From the IMG/VR virus record IMGVR_UViG_3300032265_003080, positions 1 to 38,174 of that record: a stretch of 38,174 nucleotides of DNA. One strand, given 5' to 3'. This DNA is from a virus. Positions 5,413 to 12,453 of the stretch are shown in pieces. The notes below the pieces were generated by a model. The model saw nothing but the letters and a program-made list of their open reading frames with translations. It made no database searches and was not told the DNA's origin. Every line of letters starts with the position of its first letter. Position 1 is the first letter of the stretch. Made by a program: the position numbers and the translations under genes.

Positions 5413-5627
5413 TCTCAAACTCTGAACAAATTGTCAAGATAATTGATGAATTTGATCAGGAAACAACCGAAATTAGACAAGAGGCGTTAAGAATATCCTG
5501 GTACATGCGTGGTGGGATCAGTTATGATCATGTCATGCAACTCGGCGTACAAGAACGTAGTATAATCAACGAATTAGTCAAAGAGAATTTAGAAACAACT
5601 AAGAAATCAGGACTTCCATTCTTCTGA
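5397..5627 (+). CDS. -1 frame extension of the tail assembly chaperone (GT-like)
   Basis: After a -1 shift at 5391-5397 the frame continues for 76 codons to TGA at 5625-5627, giving a 351-residue fusion. The extension is helical and well formed, with IVKIIDEFDQETTEIRQEA, WYMRGGISYDHVMQL, and a C-terminus ETTKKSGLPFF. That ending is shared by gp51-like short proteins of T4-like phages. No ATG, GTG or TTG with a ribosome-binding site lies near its beginning; the first ATG (5505) would lose half of it. It therefore looks made only as a fusion, like lambda gpGT. Its likely role is recruiting tail tube subunits to the chaperone-coated tape measure, inferred from lambda. Confidence 0.75.
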   Translation, partial: RSRLLVSNSEQIVKIIDEFDQETTEIRQEALRISWYMRGGISYDHVMQLGVQERSIINELVKENLETTKKSGLPFF

Positions 5628-5656: not shown

Positions 5657-5716
5657 GTTCTTTTCGCTCTGCTCAAGAACTTGTTTGTCTTTCGCATTAT
5701 CCAGATTAATCGGTCA

Positions 5717-5742
5717 CAATTCACCGTATGCACGGTGAATTG
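5717..5742. terminator. Strong 11-bp hairpin in the convergent intergenic region
   Basis: CAATTCACCGT (5717-5727), 4-nt loop, ACGGTGAATTG (5732-5742), perfectly paired. Neither side has a clear U-tract. It could stop minus-strand transcripts, stabilise an RNA end, or be part of a structured RNA. Confidence 0.4.
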
Positions 5743-6045
5743 ACTTCTACATTATCCGAGTAGCACAGTCATTCATTATAAAGAGATTCGTTTACACGAC
5801 GGAGGCGGTTGACCGGTACCCCCTACTCTAGCTTCACATATCAACGGAACCCTAGTAACCCGATAACAAATCCAAGTCCTATAAGCATGAGTTGTGTCTT
5901 TTTCACAGAGCTCAAATCCTTTGTTGCCTTAAGTTAGCAATTGCCTTTGACGCCCAAACGTTTCCAGACCGGGTATTGCACCGTTCTTCGATGGGGGCAG
6001 ACCACAACATCCGCCACAGAGTCAGTAAAGTTGCCTATCTAAGTT

Positions 6046-6474
6046 TTAAATTTTGTTTTTGATGTGACTACCATGTATGCGGCACACTATCTGGCCGTTG
6101 TAGTAGTCGTCTGACTCTAATACTCTATGATTAAACTGTTCTCTGGCTTCAATATAACTGCATTCTGCCTTAGATTTGCAATAAAATAATATTTCTCTTG
6201 TGAAGTTGTCTGAGCCTAGCTCTGCGATGTCTTTGTTGAGTTGATCGTTGCTTCCATAGTATAGTTGCCAGTCTGAGTCTATCTTAGTTCTAATTCGTTT
6301 TTTCTTTTTGTTGCCGTTCTTTAATTTTACTACTTTGTACGTGGTTTTACTAAACTTTGCTAATTTTTTTCCAATATATTTTCGTCCGGTTATGTTATTT
6401 GTGATCAAATAAACAAATCCGACACAATCTTCGGGTAGTTCTGTAATTTGGGTGTTTTCGTGCAACCATACCAT
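6046..6474 (-). CDS. GIY-YIG family endonuclease
   Basis: A 142-residue protein with a GIY-YIG nuclease core: VYLI at 21-24, KYIG at 32-35, a Lys-rich insert at about 50-62, DWQLYYGSND at 69-78, candidate catalytic Glu109 in SYIEAREQF, and a terminal YYNG (Asn126). Family members cut DNA and include free-standing homing endonucleases (T4 Seg type), though related small nucleases are common in T4-like phages without proven homing. No separate DNA-binding domain follows the core. It begins 10 bp after the second radical SAM gene and is the last gene of that operon. No Shine-Dalgarno is evident at the ATG. A homing role would explain the gene but is not shown here. Confidence 0.75.
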   Translation of the reverse strand: MVWLHENTQITELPEDCVGFVYLITNNITGRKYIGKKLAKFSKTTYKVVKLKNGNKKKKRIRTKIDSDWQLYYGSNDQLNKDIAELGSDNFTREILFYCKSKAECSYIEAREQFNHRVLESDDYYNGQIVCRIHGSHIKNKI

Positions 6475-6484
6475 GGACTAGTAG

Positions 6485-7768
6485 TTATAGTCTTGTATCC
6501 CCCACCGCAAAATATTTGGACACCTCGGGATTGTTGAACCAACCCCAAGTGTCAATCGTATCATACAATTTTTTGGTCTGTTCTAAGTCTCCGTCCTGTT
6601 GCAACAGATTGATCACAGCATGTATCTCTGAATCAATATGTTGTTTAAACCAGGTTGGATCTCGAGGATTGCTGTCAGCAGGAGCAGGCTCACTAAACTG
6701 CCATTGCTGATATTTTTTAATCAGGCGTTGTTTAATCTCAACAGGTAACTGCCGTATCTGCAAATGCACAGGTCGAACCAAAATATTGGTCATAACATCT
6801 ACCTGACGATTCACACACCAACGATATAGGTCGTCCAATGTATGCACACTGAGTGCGCTGGGCACAGGCCTCACAGTGATATACACATGATCCTTGCTTC
6901 GATACTTCAAGTAAGTGTCGATATGTTCCAACACCTCGTTGGTGTTAGTGCCCTTGCGTATATGATCGTTTAACACACCAAAACACTCAACGCTGATGCC
7001 AATATCCACATGCCTAAAAGTGTTTAGTTTTTTAATTAACCCAATGTTTACTATACTGCCGTTGGTAGTAAATCCCAAATAGATATCGGTTTTGCCGGCT
7101 GCTATCAAACGATCTATTAGATCTTCAAATCTAGGATTCAATAATGGTTCACCGCCGATGAGATGTACAAACTTTAAATTGTCGGTGGCACAGATATAAT
7201 CAACTACATGATTCCAAGATTTTTCGTCCTTGGTCCAGTTTAATCGCGCCGGCCCTGAATATGTTCCGTCTCTCAACCCCTCTACGGCCAGTTGACTGCT
7301 CGACCACGGACCACACATCTTGCAAGCATAGTTGCACTCGTTTCCAAGATTTATATGATAACTGACTGGCCGCATGATATCGGTAGCACCCTGATTGGCT
7401 TGAGAAAATTCAAAATGCGGCAGATCTGGACTAGCCCGATAGGTCAAATCAAAATTTACATCACTGATATCACTCTTTAAGTTTTCCTTGAGTCTCTTGC
7501 TGGAACTTCCTACTTTTTCTTCAGTGTAACACATTTGGCAACGCGGTTCGTGGACACCATTCAGCTTGTCCAACCGTACCCGGCGTTGGTATTCGCCATT
7601 GATCCAATCTTCTAATTTCATATTGTGTACATTATTTTTTTCTACAAATCCCGGAGGAAATGGTGTGCGTTGAGGTGGGGGTTGTGCACCACAAGTATGA
7701 TAAGTTCCATCAGCATTTATGTGGACTTCAAACCAAGGAACTATACAGAATATTTTATCGTTGGTCAT
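6485..7768 (-). CDS. Radical SAM enzyme with N-terminal twitch-like auxiliary cluster domain
   Basis: A 427-residue radical SAM protein. The [4Fe-4S]-SAM motif CxxxCxxC is at Cys145, Cys149 and Cys152 (NECNYACKMCGP), followed by HLIGGEPLLNP, the GGE motif that contacts SAM. An unusual N-terminal segment carries Cys8 (FCIVPWFEVHINADG), Cys26 and the pair Cys77/Cys80 (CQMCYTEE). This fits the described 'N-terminal twitch' radical SAM family, in which four Cys bind an auxiliary cluster. Such enzymes usually modify peptides or proteins through a 5'-deoxyadenosyl radical. The substrate here is unknown. Its ATG lies 14 bp inside the end of the preceding radical SAM gene, so the two are translationally coupled and probably work together. 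Confidence 0.85.
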   Translation of the reverse strand: MTNDKIFCIVPWFEVHINADGTYHTCGAQPPPQRTPFPPGFVEKNNVHNMKLEDWINGEYQRRVRLDKLNGVHEPRCQMCYTEEKVGSSSKRLKENLKSDISDVNFDLTYRASPDLPHFEFSQANQGATDIMRPVSYHINLGNECNYACKMCGPWSSSQLAVEGLRDGTYSGPARLNWTKDEKSWNHVVDYICATDNLKFVHLIGGEPLLNPRFEDLIDRLIAAGKTDIYLGFTTNGSIVNIGLIKKLNTFRHVDIGISVECFGVLNDHIRKGTNTNEVLEHIDTYLKYRSKDHVYITVRPVPSALSVHTLDDLYRWCVNRQVDVMTNILVRPVHLQIRQLPVEIKQRLIKKYQQWQFSEPAPADSNPRDPTWFKQHIDSEIHAVINLLQQDGDLEQTKKLYDTIDTWGWFNNPEVSKYFAVGDTRL

Positions 7769-8723
7769 TTTTACACTTTATTTGGCAAATTTCCATTGGA
7801 TTGCTGTCAAAGCTATCAATCAACTCTTGCCACAGCTGGTTGTCGTTTATGATTTCAAAAAATGATCGATTGCGGATAGACAAACGGTCTTGATGTTGTT
7901 TGACAAAACTATTCTCCTGATAGCCATTGTTAAACCATGGACAAGGTTGCACTACGCCGTCAATACCGATGAATAAATCTTTTTGATAATTCAGACATTT
8001 AGCCCAGGCATGCGGTTGATCTGGGACCGCAGGAACAATTGGTATGTACTTATTAGAATTTAGTACTTCTACTTTGGTCTCATAAACTAAGGTATCAGCT
8101 ACCAGCTTGTTGGCTGGCCGCAATTGATCTATACCGTCGACCAAATAGCGTCCGTCAAATTTTGAACTCTTGACTGTGCGAAATCGATTGCAACCCAGAG
8201 ATTGAGCTAGATTTCGCATAGTATCAATTTGGTCTTGATTGAACGAAAAGTAAATAGCCGACCATTGTATAGAACATTCACTGGTATTGCGTAAAGTCTT
8301 GATGCCCAAAACAATGCTGTCAAAGTCGCTGTTGATTCGATACTGACGATTAGATTCATGATTCCATCCGTCGATACTGAATGTGACTTGATCATTATAG
8401 TCCAACAGGCAACCCAACTGTTGCCACCATTCGGCCCGTTTGTAACTGCCATTGGTTGTGATTTTTATACGACTGGAACTATTTTGTTTAATGTATTCTA
8501 CAATTTCTAAAAATTCTGTAGCATAGATAGGATCCCCGATGTCGCCACAAAATATAAAATGTTCAATTTGTATCAACACATCAACTGGAAATCCTGACTT
8601 AAAATTTTCAAGCGTTATCTCTTGATTTATCTGATCCAAATTTAATTCAGTTCTAGGACATCGTGGGCACTTTAGTACACATTTGCTACTGAGCTCGAGA
8701 TGTACCGTACGATAGTTAAGCAA
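7755..8723 (-). CDS. Radical SAM enzyme with C-terminal SPASM/twitch-like domain
   Basis: A 322-residue radical SAM protein. CxxxCxxC is at Cys15, Cys19 and Cys22 (SKCVLKCPRCPR), with FCGDIGDP in the position of the GGE motif and KITTNGS as a later strand. The C-terminal part has Cys243, Cys261 (GIDGVVQPCPWFNNGY) and CQIKC (Cys313, Cys317). These four ligands suit one auxiliary [4Fe-4S] cluster, as in SPASM/twitch enzymes acting on peptides. Translation starts at TTG (8723), which overlaps the last codons of gp46 by 8 bp; no ATG or GTG lies before the first Cys. The pair of auxiliary-cluster radical SAM genes is part of the gp47-gp46 operon. Substrate unknown. Confidence 0.85.
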   Translation of the reverse strand: MLNYRTVHLELSSKCVLKCPRCPRTELNLDQINQEITLENFKSGFPVDVLIQIEHFIFCGDIGDPIYATEFLEIVEYIKQNSSSRIKITTNGSYKRAEWWQQLGCLLDYNDQVTFSIDGWNHESNRQYRINSDFDSIVLGIKTLRNTSECSIQWSAIYFSFNQDQIDTMRNLAQSLGCNRFRTVKSSKFDGRYLVDGIDQLRPANKLVADTLVYETKVEVLNSNKYIPIVPAVPDQPHAWAKCLNYQKDLFIGIDGVVQPCPWFNNGYQENSFVKQHQDRLSIRNRSFFEIINDNQLWQELIDSFDSNPMEICQIKCKNDQR

Positions 8724-10479
8724 TCTCTACATCCGTGTTGTATGAAGTAAAGCCGTTTTCTTTGATAACCTTGAGTATATTTTCTACCCGTCCGGTTAGC
8801 TCATCTCTATGACTGACCAACCAGATTGATTTGTGTCGATCACGGCTCATCTGTTTCAACAAGGCCAAGGCTGATTCTACGCCGGCGGTATCTAGACCGT
8901 TGTCGATCATTTCGTCAATGAATAAAAGATTAATAGGTTGATACAGGCTTTCAAATACATCTCTGAATGCCCAGCTCATGCTTAGGATAAGTCTATTGCG
9001 TTCACCGCGCGATAAGTTATCAAAGTCTAGTTCACGGCCCAGTTCTTCAATACTCACGGTAAGATCATTCTGAAACACCACAGTGTGTGGCAAGCCCACA
9101 CGGTCTAGATAGTGTGTTAGTCTAGCGTTGAGGTAGCTAAGATTCTGCTCAATAATTTTCTTGCGGATGAAGCTATCCTTGCTGGTGAGTAACTTGAGCA
9201 AGAAATCTTGATGTTCTTGTAGTCTGGTAAGTTCGTTAAGCGTGTCATATGTGACCTCCTGTAGGGCTTGTGAATTCATTTCATCGATCTGTTCGGTATA
9301 CGGATCAGTTTCGGCTGTTTTGCCGGCAATCTGCTGTTCAAGACTGGACACAGTGGCCTGATGCTGAATAGCATCACTTTCGTTGTCATAGAACATCTTG
9401 GGCGGTTTGCCTAGCGTGCCCAGGGCTTCGACGGCAGTCTCCAGCTCTGCCAGTGTGTCAGTATGAGCCTGGCTCGCTTCTCGCGCTCCCACCAGATCCG
9501 CCTGCTTACCTTCCAAAACTTGTTGGTGCTTATGGTCGTGGAAAGCCTGTCCGCAGGTGTGACATTCATGGCTTTCGAGCGTAGAGATTTCTTTTGATAG
9601 CTTGGAAATCGCTTTGTTTTCCCGATCAATATCCAGTTTCGTGCGACTGATCTGACCAGATAGATCGTTGATATCCTTTCTTTTCTGATCCCATGTCTTG
9701 TGATCTTTGTGCGCTTGGATCTCCACTTCAATCTGTATATTCTGTAGCGCCGCAAGGGCTTTCTCAAGTTCCTGGATATCAGTGGCATGTTTGTCGGTCC
9801 ATAGTTTTTGTCGCCGCTTTAGATTCTCAATCTGTTCTTCAATACGCTTGTTGGCTTCCTGCACAGCACGAATGCGAAATTCTTCCTGCTGTATAGCATC
9901 TTTGGTTTCTTTGTTGAGCTCTTTGATACGATCAGCTCGATCACTCAGCTGAGTAATGCCCAAGAGCTGTTCGATGATAGTTCTTTGATCATTGGCCTTT
10001 AGGCTCAAAAACGGTTCAGTATAAGTGTTCAAGGCCATGATATGTTTGAACATATCATGGCTCAGTCCCAAGGTAGTTTCAATGGCTTCCTGGGTTTCTC
10101 TTGAATCGCCTTGTGCTTCGTCAGTAATTTCTTGTTCTTTGTTGTTTACATAAAATCGCAATATATTTGGCTTACGACCACGCTCAATTTTATAAGTTTG
10201 GTTACCGGCAACAAAATCCAAACTGACCAGCATGCCTTTTCCGTTGGTCTTGTTTACCAGATTGTCTTTGCGTATGTTGCTTAGAGCTTGTCCGTATAAC
10301 GCATAGCTTAGGGCATTAATAATGGTGGTTTTGCCTGTGCCGTTACGGCTACCGTCGCCGCCCAGGTCTAAGTTTTCACCCAGCACAAGAGTTAGATCAT
10401 TACGATCAAAGTCAATGGCTTGTGTAGTATTACCCACACTCATAAAATTTCGAACAGTTAAGTTTTTAATTTGTATCAT
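8716..10479 (-). CDS. gp46: Recombination endonuclease subunit gp46 (Rad50-like)
   Basis: A 587-residue SMC/Rad50-type ATPase. The P-loop NGTGKTT is at residues 46-52, preceded by the Gly/Asp-rich insert GENLDLGGDGSR. A coiled coil (about 185-300) leads to a zinc hook CHTC at 306-309, then a second coil. The ABC signature LSRGERNR and Walker B LLFIDEMIDNGLD are near the C-terminus, followed by a switch His (WLVSHRDE). With gp47 it forms the Mre11-Rad50-like nuclease that resects DNA ends for recombination-dependent replication and helps degrade host DNA. Its ATG overlaps the gp47 stop by 4 bp (ATGA), so the two are coupled. Confidence 0.95.
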   Translation of the reverse strand: MIQIKNLTVRNFMSVGNTTQAIDFDRNDLTLVLGENLDLGGDGSRNGTGKTTIINALSYALYGQALSNIRKDNLVNKTNGKGMLVSLDFVAGNQTYKIERGRKPNILRFYVNNKEQEITDEAQGDSRETQEAIETTLGLSHDMFKHIMALNTYTEPFLSLKANDQRTIIEQLLGITQLSDRADRIKELNKETKDAIQQEEFRIRAVQEANKRIEEQIENLKRRQKLWTDKHATDIQELEKALAALQNIQIEVEIQAHKDHKTWDQKRKDINDLSGQISRTKLDIDRENKAISKLSKEISTLESHECHTCGQAFHDHKHQQVLEGKQADLVGAREASQAHTDTLAELETAVEALGTLGKPPKMFYDNESDAIQHQATVSSLEQQIAGKTAETDPYTEQIDEMNSQALQEVTYDTLNELTRLQEHQDFLLKLLTSKDSFIRKKIIEQNLSYLNARLTHYLDRVGLPHTVVFQNDLTVSIEELGRELDFDNLSRGERNRLILSMSWAFRDVFESLYQPINLLFIDEMIDNGLDTAGVESALALLKQMSRDRHKSIWLVSHRDELTGRVENILKVIKENGFTSYNTDVEIA

Positions 10480-11492
10480 AGGTTCTGATATATTTTTAAT
10501 AGTAGTTTAGGATCATAAAACTCACTTTCAATATTGGTAAGTTGATCTGTGACAATTTGATCCACACTCTCAAATTTGATTTCACCTGGTGCAAGATCCA
10601 AATCCACTGCGGTACTCTTGACCGGCAATAATGCCATCTCACGCAAATTGTAGTCTTTGATAAATGTTTCTTTAATAAAATTGGCTTCTTCGTAGCTGAT
10701 ATCAATGTCTAGCTCTACACGCACATGCATGTTTGGTGCTAATAATTTGGTTGCACCGTCGATAACTTGGCTTAGTTTCATTACACGATACAAAGGTTGT
10801 CCGGGCCATGCGTGATATTCCGCAGGTTTGCCCCACTCTAACACCATCATGCCACGGTTGGCATCCCCTGCGTCGGCAAAATTATGCGGGAAACAGTTGC
10901 CAATATAGTTAATATTTTTTTTCTGCTGGCGTAAATGAAAATGCCCAGAATACACTTCGCCTACTCCGCCAAAATGATCTACTTGAATTTCACCGTGATC
11001 TGGCATTTCTACCATGGCATTCATTTTAAAATGCGGCAACTCAAAGTGCCCAAATACATATTGACTGTTTAATTTCTGAATTTTTTTATGATCATCTCCG
11101 ACCAGCCACGGCGCGATAGTTACTCCACCTTCGCTGAACCAATCGTTGACCACATGAATGTTTGGCAAATGTTGTGCCCATTCTGCTCCATGGATATCAC
11201 GCTTGTCTCTGTAGTACAAGTCGTGATTGCCAGGAATAAAATAAAAATTATCAAATGCGGCACTTAGTTTTTGCAAACTTTTTAAACTGAAGTGTAAAGT
11301 TTGTAAATTAATACTAGCTCTATGATGATGCCAGTCACCAAGAAACATTCCAGTCTCGCATCCTTCTTTTTTGGCCTTGGTAATAAACCAATCGATAAAG
11401 TCCGAACAGTCTTGGTTGTGTACTAAGCTATTAGATTTTAGTCCAAAATGTATGTCTGTGCAGACAGCAGTCTTGCAAAATAGATTTGTCAT
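10476..11492 (-). CDS. gp47: Recombination nuclease subunit gp47 (Mre11-like)
   Basis: A 338-residue calcineurin-type phosphoesterase. The metal-binding motifs appear in order: DIHFG (residues 13-17), GDWHHH, PGNHDLYY, FGHFE and GHFHLRQ. These are the nuclease motifs of Mre11/SbcD and T4 gp47, which pairs with gp46 to process double-strand ends. The first gene of the gp47-gp46-radical SAM-GIY-YIG operon. The start has no Shine-Dalgarno. A sigma70-like promoter (TTGCAA, 17 bp, TATACT) ends only 8 nt upstream, so its mRNA may be leaderless or nearly so. Confidence 0.93.
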   Translation of the reverse strand: MTNLFCKTAVCTDIHFGLKSNSLVHNQDCSDFIDWFITKAKKEGCETGMFLGDWHHHRASINLQTLHFSLKSLQKLSAAFDNFYFIPGNHDLYYRDKRDIHGAEWAQHLPNIHVVNDWFSEGGVTIAPWLVGDDHKKIQKLNSQYVFGHFELPHFKMNAMVEMPDHGEIQVDHFGGVGEVYSGHFHLRQQKKNINYIGNCFPHNFADAGDANRGMMVLEWGKPAEYHAWPGQPLYRVMKLSQVIDGATKLLAPNMHVRVELDIDISYEEANFIKETFIKDYNLREMALLPVKSTAVDLDLAPGEIKFESVDQIVTDQLTNIESEFYDPKLLLKIYQNL

Positions 11493-11538: not shown

Positions 11539-12453
11539 TTAAGTTTCGTCGTTGTATTCGGCAATGTCGATGTTGGTAACTACAGCGCCAAAGTTGGGAT
11601 TTTTCTTGCCGGCATTTTGTCTAGTCCAGCTAGGATTAAGTCCAGCCTGTTCCAGCATATCGTCACGGATATTTTGATTTTTCTTTTCCAAATTCAAAAT
11701 TCTAGTAAAACTATTAGTGATAGCAGCAGTGTAATAAGCAAAAGGATTTTGAGATTTCGACTCGTCAAACTGTAGTCCGATCTGTGACAGTTGTAGGAGT
11801 GCTTGTCCGCGCATTTCTTCATTGTAAGTGTACCCTCTCCAGTTGCTACGAGTGGCGTAGCGTTCGCATAGCTTCATATACATGGTAGCCAGTGTACGAG
11901 TGGCTTGGCCGTGATCTTTGCTAAACTCGCCGTGGTGTAAATCGCCCTTCCAATGACTTTTACCTACCAACACCGGCTCTTTGGCATCATTTAAACGATA
12001 GTGATAAAATGGAGGAAAGTTCAAACGAACATGTTTGGGATCTAAAATAGGCTCGTCCAGCAACTCTAGCAACGGGTCGTCTTCGGGCATGTCTAGGTCA
12101 AAAATATCCTCAATTTTTTTCTTTTTTGTGGTAGTTTTGGCTACTTTTTTAGGTGCCATTGGTATGTGATCCCAACAGGTCACACGGAATACCAGATCAG
12201 TGTTGGCAATCTTTTTGGGATCAACAACCTGGCCAGTTTCACGCTTGATACGGTCAGCTCTGTTTCTGCGTGCTTCAGCTATGGTTCTTTGATTGATCTT
12301 GAGCACGGTGGGCAAGATGATGTCGTACTGATGATCCGTGACCGGATCTAAGTAGGTACAGTAAGTGTTCTTGCTAAGGTGTATTTGTTTTAGGATATCT
12401 CTGTTGTTGAGATAATTGGTTTTTGCTGGTGTTCTTGTGGGTGTAGTTGACAC
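11539..12453 (-). CDS. gp55: Late-transcription sigma factor gp55 with N-terminal extension
   Basis: A 304-residue protein whose residues about 165-270 match T4-type gp55, the sigma factor for late promoters. Landmarks are HHGEFSKDHGQATRTLATMY, NWRGYTYNEEMRGQAL and KSQNPFAYYTAAITNSFTRI followed by LNLEKKNQ, a sigma region 2-like core. T4 gp55 has 185 residues, so about 100 are extra. Residues 14-98 (YLNNRDILKQIHLSKNTYC to CWDHIP) look like a separate small conserved phage protein fused in frame, joined by a Lys-rich linker (KTTTKKKK). The start is GTG at 12453 with AGGAGA eight bases upstream. A late-type motif (12474-12479) precedes the gene. The acidic C-terminus (IDIAEYNDET) might be the clamp-contacting tail, by analogy with T4. 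Confidence 0.85.
   Translation of the reverse strand: MSTTPTRTPAKTNYLNNRDILKQIHLSKNTYCTYLDPVTDHQYDIILPTVLKINQRTIAEARRNRADRIKRETGQVVDPKKIANTDLVFRVTCWDHIPMAPKKVAKTTTKKKKIEDIFDLDMPEDDPLLELLDEPILDPKHVRLNFPPFYHYRLNDAKEPVLVGKSHWKGDLHHGEFSKDHGQATRTLATMYMKLCERYATRSNWRGYTYNEEMRGQALLQLSQIGLQFDESKSQNPFAYYTAAITNSFTRILNLEKKNQNIRDDMLEQAGLNPSWTRQNAGKKNPNFGAVVTNIDIAEYNDET

Follow-up and report, generated by a model that had tools for sequence, protein, structure and literature searches.

Two adjacent genes of an uncultured, large, T4-like phage encode proteins that are, as judged by motif and predicted fold, complete radical SAM (rSAM) enzymes, and this pair is a co-inherited cargo across dozens of related large T4-like phages. 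The pair lies in the window analysed here, which is the whole of the viral IMG/VR record IMGVR_UViG_3300032265_003080 (38,174 nt). Our best guess, which we hold tentatively, is that the two enzymes cooperate, each contributing one rSAM step to the conversion of a sugar, a glycan or a small molecule. Phage rSAM genes are usually listed singly, as auxiliary genes without an assigned role; those described here form a defined two-enzyme unit that can be tested as one.

The two genes belong to a run on the minus strand that is headed by a gp55-like late sigma factor gene (11,539–12,453 (−); phrog_12791, 243 bits) and continues with the genes for the recombination subunits gp47 (SbcD-like; 10,476–11,492 (−); phrog_100, 185 bits) and gp46 (SbcC-like; 8,716–10,479 (−); phrog_77, 343 bits). 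The first enzyme gene, rSAM2 (7,755–8,723 (−); 322 aa), starts at a TTG codon and overlaps the stop of gp46 by 8 nt; its open reading frame has rSAM matches in NCBIfam and PHROG, and the protein would carry a C-terminal twitch-type auxiliary cluster (C-twitch). It overlaps by 14 nt the gene for rSAM1 (6,485–7,768 (−); 427 aa), an N-terminal-twitch (N-twitch) rSAM enzyme. A gap of 10 nt separates rSAM1 from a SegE-like GIY-YIG nuclease gene (6,046–6,474 (−); PF19835, 114.3 bits). The remaining junctions of the run are a gap of 46 nt between gp55 and gp47 and a 4-nt overlap between gp47 and gp46. The coordinates and gene order of the initial annotation proved exact, and the reading frames and profiles bore out every descriptive detail that could be checked, including the overlap with gp46 and the nuclease after the pair.

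Both proteins combine the CX3CX2C motif with conserved auxiliary cysteines, the criterion for rSAM enzymes of the twitch/SPASM type. In rSAM2, the motif for the SAM-binding [4Fe-4S] cluster (C15, C19 and C22; 8,658–8,681 (−)) is followed by a C-terminal twitch set (C243, C261, C313 and C317; 7,773–7,997 (−)) with the spacing C243-X17-C261 (G-X4-C) ... C313-X3-C317. The order is reversed in rSAM1, where an N-terminal twitch set (C8, C26, C77 and C80; 7,529–7,747 (−)), covered by a weak match to the SPASM model PF13186 (residues 8–81, 20.8 bits), precedes the CX3CX2C motif (C145, C149 and C152; 7,313–7,336 (−)). Because all seven cluster cysteines of rSAM2 are invariant across 49 homologues and all seven of rSAM1 across 35, the 14 residues cannot be put down to chance. 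The initial annotation had placed a C-terminal Cys set in one enzyme and an N-terminal one in the other, and had named loss of these residues in homologues as a sign against its reading; the motifs and their invariance confirm the placement, and no such loss was found.

The named family models recognise the two proteins unequally. rSAM1 exceeds the cut-offs of both N_Twi_rSAM (NCBIfam NF033640; 247.5 bits over residues 5–407, cut-off 170) and Pfam Radical_SAM (PF04055; 52.6 bits, cut-off 29.5). NF033640 shares with rSAM1 the succession of N-terminal twitch and radical core, and its name gives neither a function nor a C-twitch partner; we found no paper on N-terminal-twitch rSAM enzymes in the open-access literature. 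For rSAM2, the Pfam model stays just below its cut-off (27.3 bits for the protein by itself, 29.0 within the genome search), NF033640 matches the core only (30.8 bits, below 170), and no named family applies, as the protein scores 55.9 bits with the best model, that of the tungsten-cofactor rSAM maturase (TIGR04317), whose cut-off is 380.

AlphaFold2 modelled the two chains with confidence throughout (pLDDT 93.0 for rSAM2 and 91.8 for rSAM1), and both models match solved rSAM enzymes with SPASM or twitch domains. The rSAM2 model aligns end to end with residues 103–436 of SuiB (Z 18.0, rmsd 4.0, 266 residues), an alignment that spans the radical and SPASM parts and leaves out the recognition element. 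SkfB, DesII, BlsE, MoaA and PqqE follow within about 1.6 Z units, so that the peptide enzymes SuiB and SkfB tie with DesII and BlsE, which act on sugars or nucleosides, and with MoaA. The core of rSAM1 matches SkfB, MoaA and anSME at Z of about 13, with its N-terminal domain barely inside the alignments. Given the tie between substrate classes, the fold confirms the class of enzyme and not its substrate, and we dropped the choice of substrate by fold ranking.

Two further readings take their support from these comparisons. Like viperin-like or base-hypermodifying rSAM enzymes, the pair could modify a nucleotide or a base of DNA or tRNA, the product serving to protect the phage DNA or to inhibit the host: BlsE, whose substrate is a cytosine nucleoside, is the top Foldseek match of rSAM2 and a small-molecule enzyme, viperin is also among the best matches, the rSAM2 profile has its best sequence match in the PDB with a viperin-like enzyme (E 2e-6), and the pair shares a transcript with DNA-handling genes. 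We consider this improbable, since the prokaryotic viperin model (NF038283), whose cut-off is 180 bits, gives 31.5 and 20.3 bits, the slot holding the pair carries no base-modification genes, and the location is accounted for by that slot (see below). Still less probable is that the pair supports host metabolism during infection by supplying or repairing a cofactor such as molybdopterin, heme or PQQ. Models of rSAM enzymes for MoaA, heme and PQQ match weakly, and PQQ-linked rSAM genes have been reported in Lake Baikal phages (PMC7678222), but all cofactor models fall far below their cut-offs (MoaA, 29.2 and 32.4 bits against 284; PqqE, 20 bits against 381) and no partner cofactor genes lie beside the pair in relatives.

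That the two genes form an inherited unit follows from their distribution. The rSAM2 alignment, used as a query, retrieved 221 viral contigs with a relative. We defined the rSAM2 orthogroup as a profile score of at least 440 bits among the fetched loci; an N-twitch rSAM gene directly follows rSAM2 in 74/74 scored orthogroup loci, and gp46 precedes it in 73 of them. Nine further loci missed by the gene caller likewise have rSAM2 and then an N-twitch gene; the apparent absence of rSAM2 from some loci was a gene-caller artefact. Many contigs are near-copies, and the distinct pairs number 52. In a maximum-likelihood tree, a single clade (100/94) unites all sampled rSAM2 proteins that are encoded after gp46 together with an N-twitch partner; the sister clade comprises solo forms, forms neighboured by a gene resembling short-chain dehydrogenases (SDRs), and Bdellovibrionota proteins. 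The two subtypes of rSAM1 described below likewise group together in one clade (100/99), separate from the N-twitch proteins of cells. The deep joins of the tree are unsure because some branches are long. The two-enzyme unit proposed in the initial annotation is therefore upheld for this subfamily. No cultured phage has a match of good identity over the greater part of either enzyme, and matches on Nocardia and Brachyspira plasmids were set aside as partial and of low identity.

The position of the pair within the recombination genes has a different explanation from the one first proposed. We surveyed the interval between gp46 and SegE without using the rSAM genes as an anchor. Anchored on gp46, 74 loci had both borders; 23 were empty, about 41 held some C-twitch rSAM gene and 4 had an N-twitch partner. 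A second anchor, a non-coding element downstream of SegE, gave 41 loci, of which 6 were empty, 16 held only other genes, 17 had a C-twitch rSAM gene without a partner and 2 had the pair. The interval is a cargo slot, bordered by gp46 and by SegE, which closes it in nearly all relatives, and the pair is a minority occupant. Independent occurrence of the two genes in most relatives, which the initial annotation had regarded as fatal to its reading, does apply to the C-twitch family at large (about 37 of the 41 rSAM-bearing loci of the gp46 survey are without a partner) and not to this rSAM2 subfamily, which never occurs without one.

The gp47–gp46 and gp55–gp47 intervals are cargo slots too. Among the other genes found in the three slots are those for a short-chain dehydrogenase, an aminotransferase-like protein, an rSAM enzyme of another type (500 aa), a methyltransferase, an AMP-binding enzyme and a TctC-type binding protein; the window's own slot holds no glycan genes. 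Judged by gp46 (54% identity), the nearest relatives in culture are jumbo phages of the PA5oct/Paride type, which have no rSAM gene after gp46. As both anchors identify the interval as a cargo slot, co-transcription with the recombination genes is a matter of location; the suggested functional tie to recombination was not substantiated, and we rejected it as the main reading. The slot exists in empty, solo, SDR-neighboured, paired and three-gene versions, which offer a natural comparison series for the purpose of the chemistry.

The N-twitch partners of rSAM2 fall into two subtypes. Those of subtype a are 43–77% identical to the rSAM1 of the window and lie directly before SegE, except at a few loci where a homing-endonuclease-like or other insertion intervenes. 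Those of subtype b are about 32–42% identical to it and are followed by a third gene, which encodes about 134–168 aa. The third gene occurs after all but one of the distinct full-length b-type N-twitch genes and after none of the a-type; at the sole exception (locus L073), just a 51-aa reading frame was called at its position. Locus L026 encodes an rSAM2 86% identical to that of the window with a partner only 36% identical, and in locus L007 the figures are 53% for rSAM2 and 77% for the partner. By these sequence comparisons, the N-twitch subtypes have been swapped while the rSAM2 proteins above them stayed closely similar.

The third protein (for example L026 6,149–6,646, with 17 distinct relatives, each behind a b-type N-twitch enzyme) ends in a C-terminal tail, ...NYLxxNGxWxLxxxxPxxxWxxxTxxxGWIYxxx, that is far better conserved than the rest. 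It has no match in Pfam, PHROG or cultured phages, so we call it just beta-rich by eye; a carbohydrate-binding module, which it resembled by eye, was dropped as an assignment for the same lack of Pfam or PHROG matches. Other cassettes hold weaker relatives whose tails differ and whose neighbour is an aminotransferase-like gene (PF00155, 21.2 bits) or another rSAM enzyme.

These observations bear on the substrate first suggested for the pair, a host or phage protein or a small peptide. SPASM/twitch rSAM enzymes often modify peptides, and two-rSAM peptide systems such as HxsB/HxsC exist. A radical modification of a phage or host protein or peptide is a possible reading, less probable than the one we prefer; the substrate or carrier of the b-type pair would be the third small protein, and that of the a-type pair, as in the window, would be encoded elsewhere. 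It remains a rival mainly because of the subtype b third gene, which tracks the b-type N-twitch enzyme and carries so conserved a tail, and it agrees with the lead of SuiB and SkfB in the Z list for rSAM2. Against it, a Pfam scan of the two proteins found no RiPP recognition element (PqqD-like) in either, in keeping with the alignment of rSAM2 from SuiB residue 103 on, and the alternative occupants of the slots are tailoring enzymes. The small protein is also absent from the window's subtype, and its relatives with different tails accompany other enzymes. The survey of small genes around the pair gave a conserved-tail protein for subtype b and, at 30 loci, no conserved small same-strand reading frame beside the a-type pair. 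The latter result agrees with the initial annotation that no substrate gene is obvious, and on its account we rejected a RiPP system with an adjacent precursor. The HxsC model gives 19.8 bits for rSAM1 against a cut-off of 267.9, and no HxsA-type peptide gene lies near the pair.

Cellular relatives of rSAM2 were found in a genome scan only in Bdellovibrionota-type MAGs (L194–L199, 30–37% identity) and in one contig labelled Pacearchaeota. The latter (L193, NZDU01000042.1) carries its rSAM2 relative among phage-like genes, and its label is probably due to mis-binning. In five Bdellovibrionota genomes, 13/24 C-twitch genes lie within 1 kb of an N-twitch gene, against about 0.34 expected, and the phage gene order with its overlap recurs in L244, L246 and L254. 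A class-wide sample had C-twitch relatives in 16/60 genomes. These pairs lie mostly outside glycan clusters. That the pairing exists in Bdellovibrionota as well suggests a function not confined to phages. An rSAM enzyme of another kind (CNYxCxYCWP) is encoded upstream of the C-twitch and N-twitch genes in L253 (6,351–7,478) and L254 (5,932–7,047), which suggests that Bdellovibrionota cells may hold three-enzyme rSAM sets. A broader proposal would treat the C-twitch/N-twitch pair as an undescribed two-enzyme radical maturation class of giant T4-like phages and Bdellovibrionota that modifies a protein carrier, with the b-type pair acting on or via the tail of the co-encoded small protein and the a-type pair on a target encoded elsewhere; we think this rather unlikely.

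Our modest preference for a sugar, a glycan or a small molecule as the target of two cooperating steps comes from the chemistry of the alternative cassettes, the lack of a recognition element and the lack of a precursor, and the top Foldseek match of rSAM2, BlsE, points the same way. Against it stand the tie of substrate classes in the structural ranking, the lack of a glycan gene in the window's own slot and the position of most Bdellovibrionota pairs outside glycan clusters. Each enzyme would reductively cleave SAM at its first cluster to yield a 5'-deoxyadenosyl radical, and the predicted auxiliary cluster would bind the substrate or carry an electron. rSAM2 and rSAM1 would act in sequence on the same substrate, one step each. 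Since closely similar rSAM2 proteins occur with either N-twitch subtype, rSAM2 may catalyse the step that all pairs share, and the N-twitch partner the one that differs. The substrate would most likely be a sugar, a sugar nucleotide, a surface or virion glycan or a small metabolite, rather than a RiPP precursor or a component of recombination, and the module would share the transcription of gp55, gp47 and gp46 only through its insertion site. A partial parallel is AprD4/AprD3 of the apramycin pathway, a radical SAM diol dehydratase and its SDR-type reductase. Their joint action, rSAM plus SDR, on a sugar is a precedent for those sister forms of phages and Bdellovibrionota that have an SDR neighbour; the window's pair, however, has no SDR, and its similarity to AprD4 is that of the general rSAM fold only.

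Each of the 24 large related contigs that we tested has between 2 and 19 rSAM genes, with the highest counts on G026 and G027 (19 each) and on the 340-kb G010 (15). N-twitch genes form a recurrent block in four contigs (G010, G014, G023 and G026). Among 111 rSAM-neighbour proteins scanned in these four, Carbam_trans matched 4, NDP-sugar epimerase-type models 4 and methyltransferase models 2, with a carbamoyltransferase among the neighbours in each contig; these counts concern other rSAM genes of the relatives and not this pair, include terminase and RecA-like proteins and come with no matched background set, so they are a lean and not a test. By eye, the N-twitch block of G010 (L014–L022, L225–L233) adjoins tail-fibre-like genes. 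A protein family with the motif YLTYDEP or FLTYDEP, without a Pfam match, adjoins N-twitch rSAM genes both in a phage (L018 10,696–11,622 (−)) and in Bdellovibrionota (L248 5,398–6,336 (−)). A signature of 5'-deoxyadenosine salvage, considered because of a nucleosidase-like gene seen by eye to follow in L008, was discarded, with PF01048 in 1/24 large relatives.

Dense rSAM complements have been described in other T4-related phages. The Campylobacter phages CP220 and CPt10 encode 11–12 rSAM proteins in interchangeable modules (Timms 2010, PMC2853527); with up to 19 rSAM genes on one contig, the phage clade studied here exceeds this number and so invests heavily in radical chemistry. The Campylobacter phages also have adjacent rSAM genes and distant C-twitch relatives (28% identity), but these are other enzymes on a long separate tree branch, located beside an amidinotransferase gene and outside the gp46–SegE slot, with no N-twitch partner shown. 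The T4-like environmental genome TARA_ERS488813_N000010 has 12 rSAM genes (Nishimura 2017, PMC5332604), for which the paper reports numbers and Fe–S assembly genes and not this pair or slot. In pelagimyophages, rSAM cassettes are gained and lost between close relatives (Zaragoza-Solas 2020, PMC7029224); these differ in being sited in the host-recognition cluster, and a coupled C-twitch/N-twitch pair is not described there.

The non-coding element that served as second anchor lies directly downstream of SegE (5,657–6,046 (−) in the window; 350–390 nt). It is 76–92% identical between phages, while the flanking proteins are often only 50–80% identical, and an exact 21-mer places it in at least 120 IMG/VR stretches. 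It was absent from the cultured-phage collection and gave no Rfam or tRNA match. A hairpin within it, TTCACCG...CGGTGAA, is paired in 89% of cases across 50 sequences, against 24–44% for slid positions, and shows compensatory changes; a second helix, GAACGG...CCGGTC, covaries too. RNAalifold gave a weak consensus over the whole, gappy alignment, and the fold of a single sequence shows no unusual stability (z 0.47). The element looks like a candidate for an undescribed structured phage RNA. Near it, after a gp26-like gene, a conserved short frame (...WYMRGG...ENLETTKKSGLPFF; about 5,440–5,627 (+) in the window, with an ATG start for the last 40 codons only) is present in 18/30 loci.
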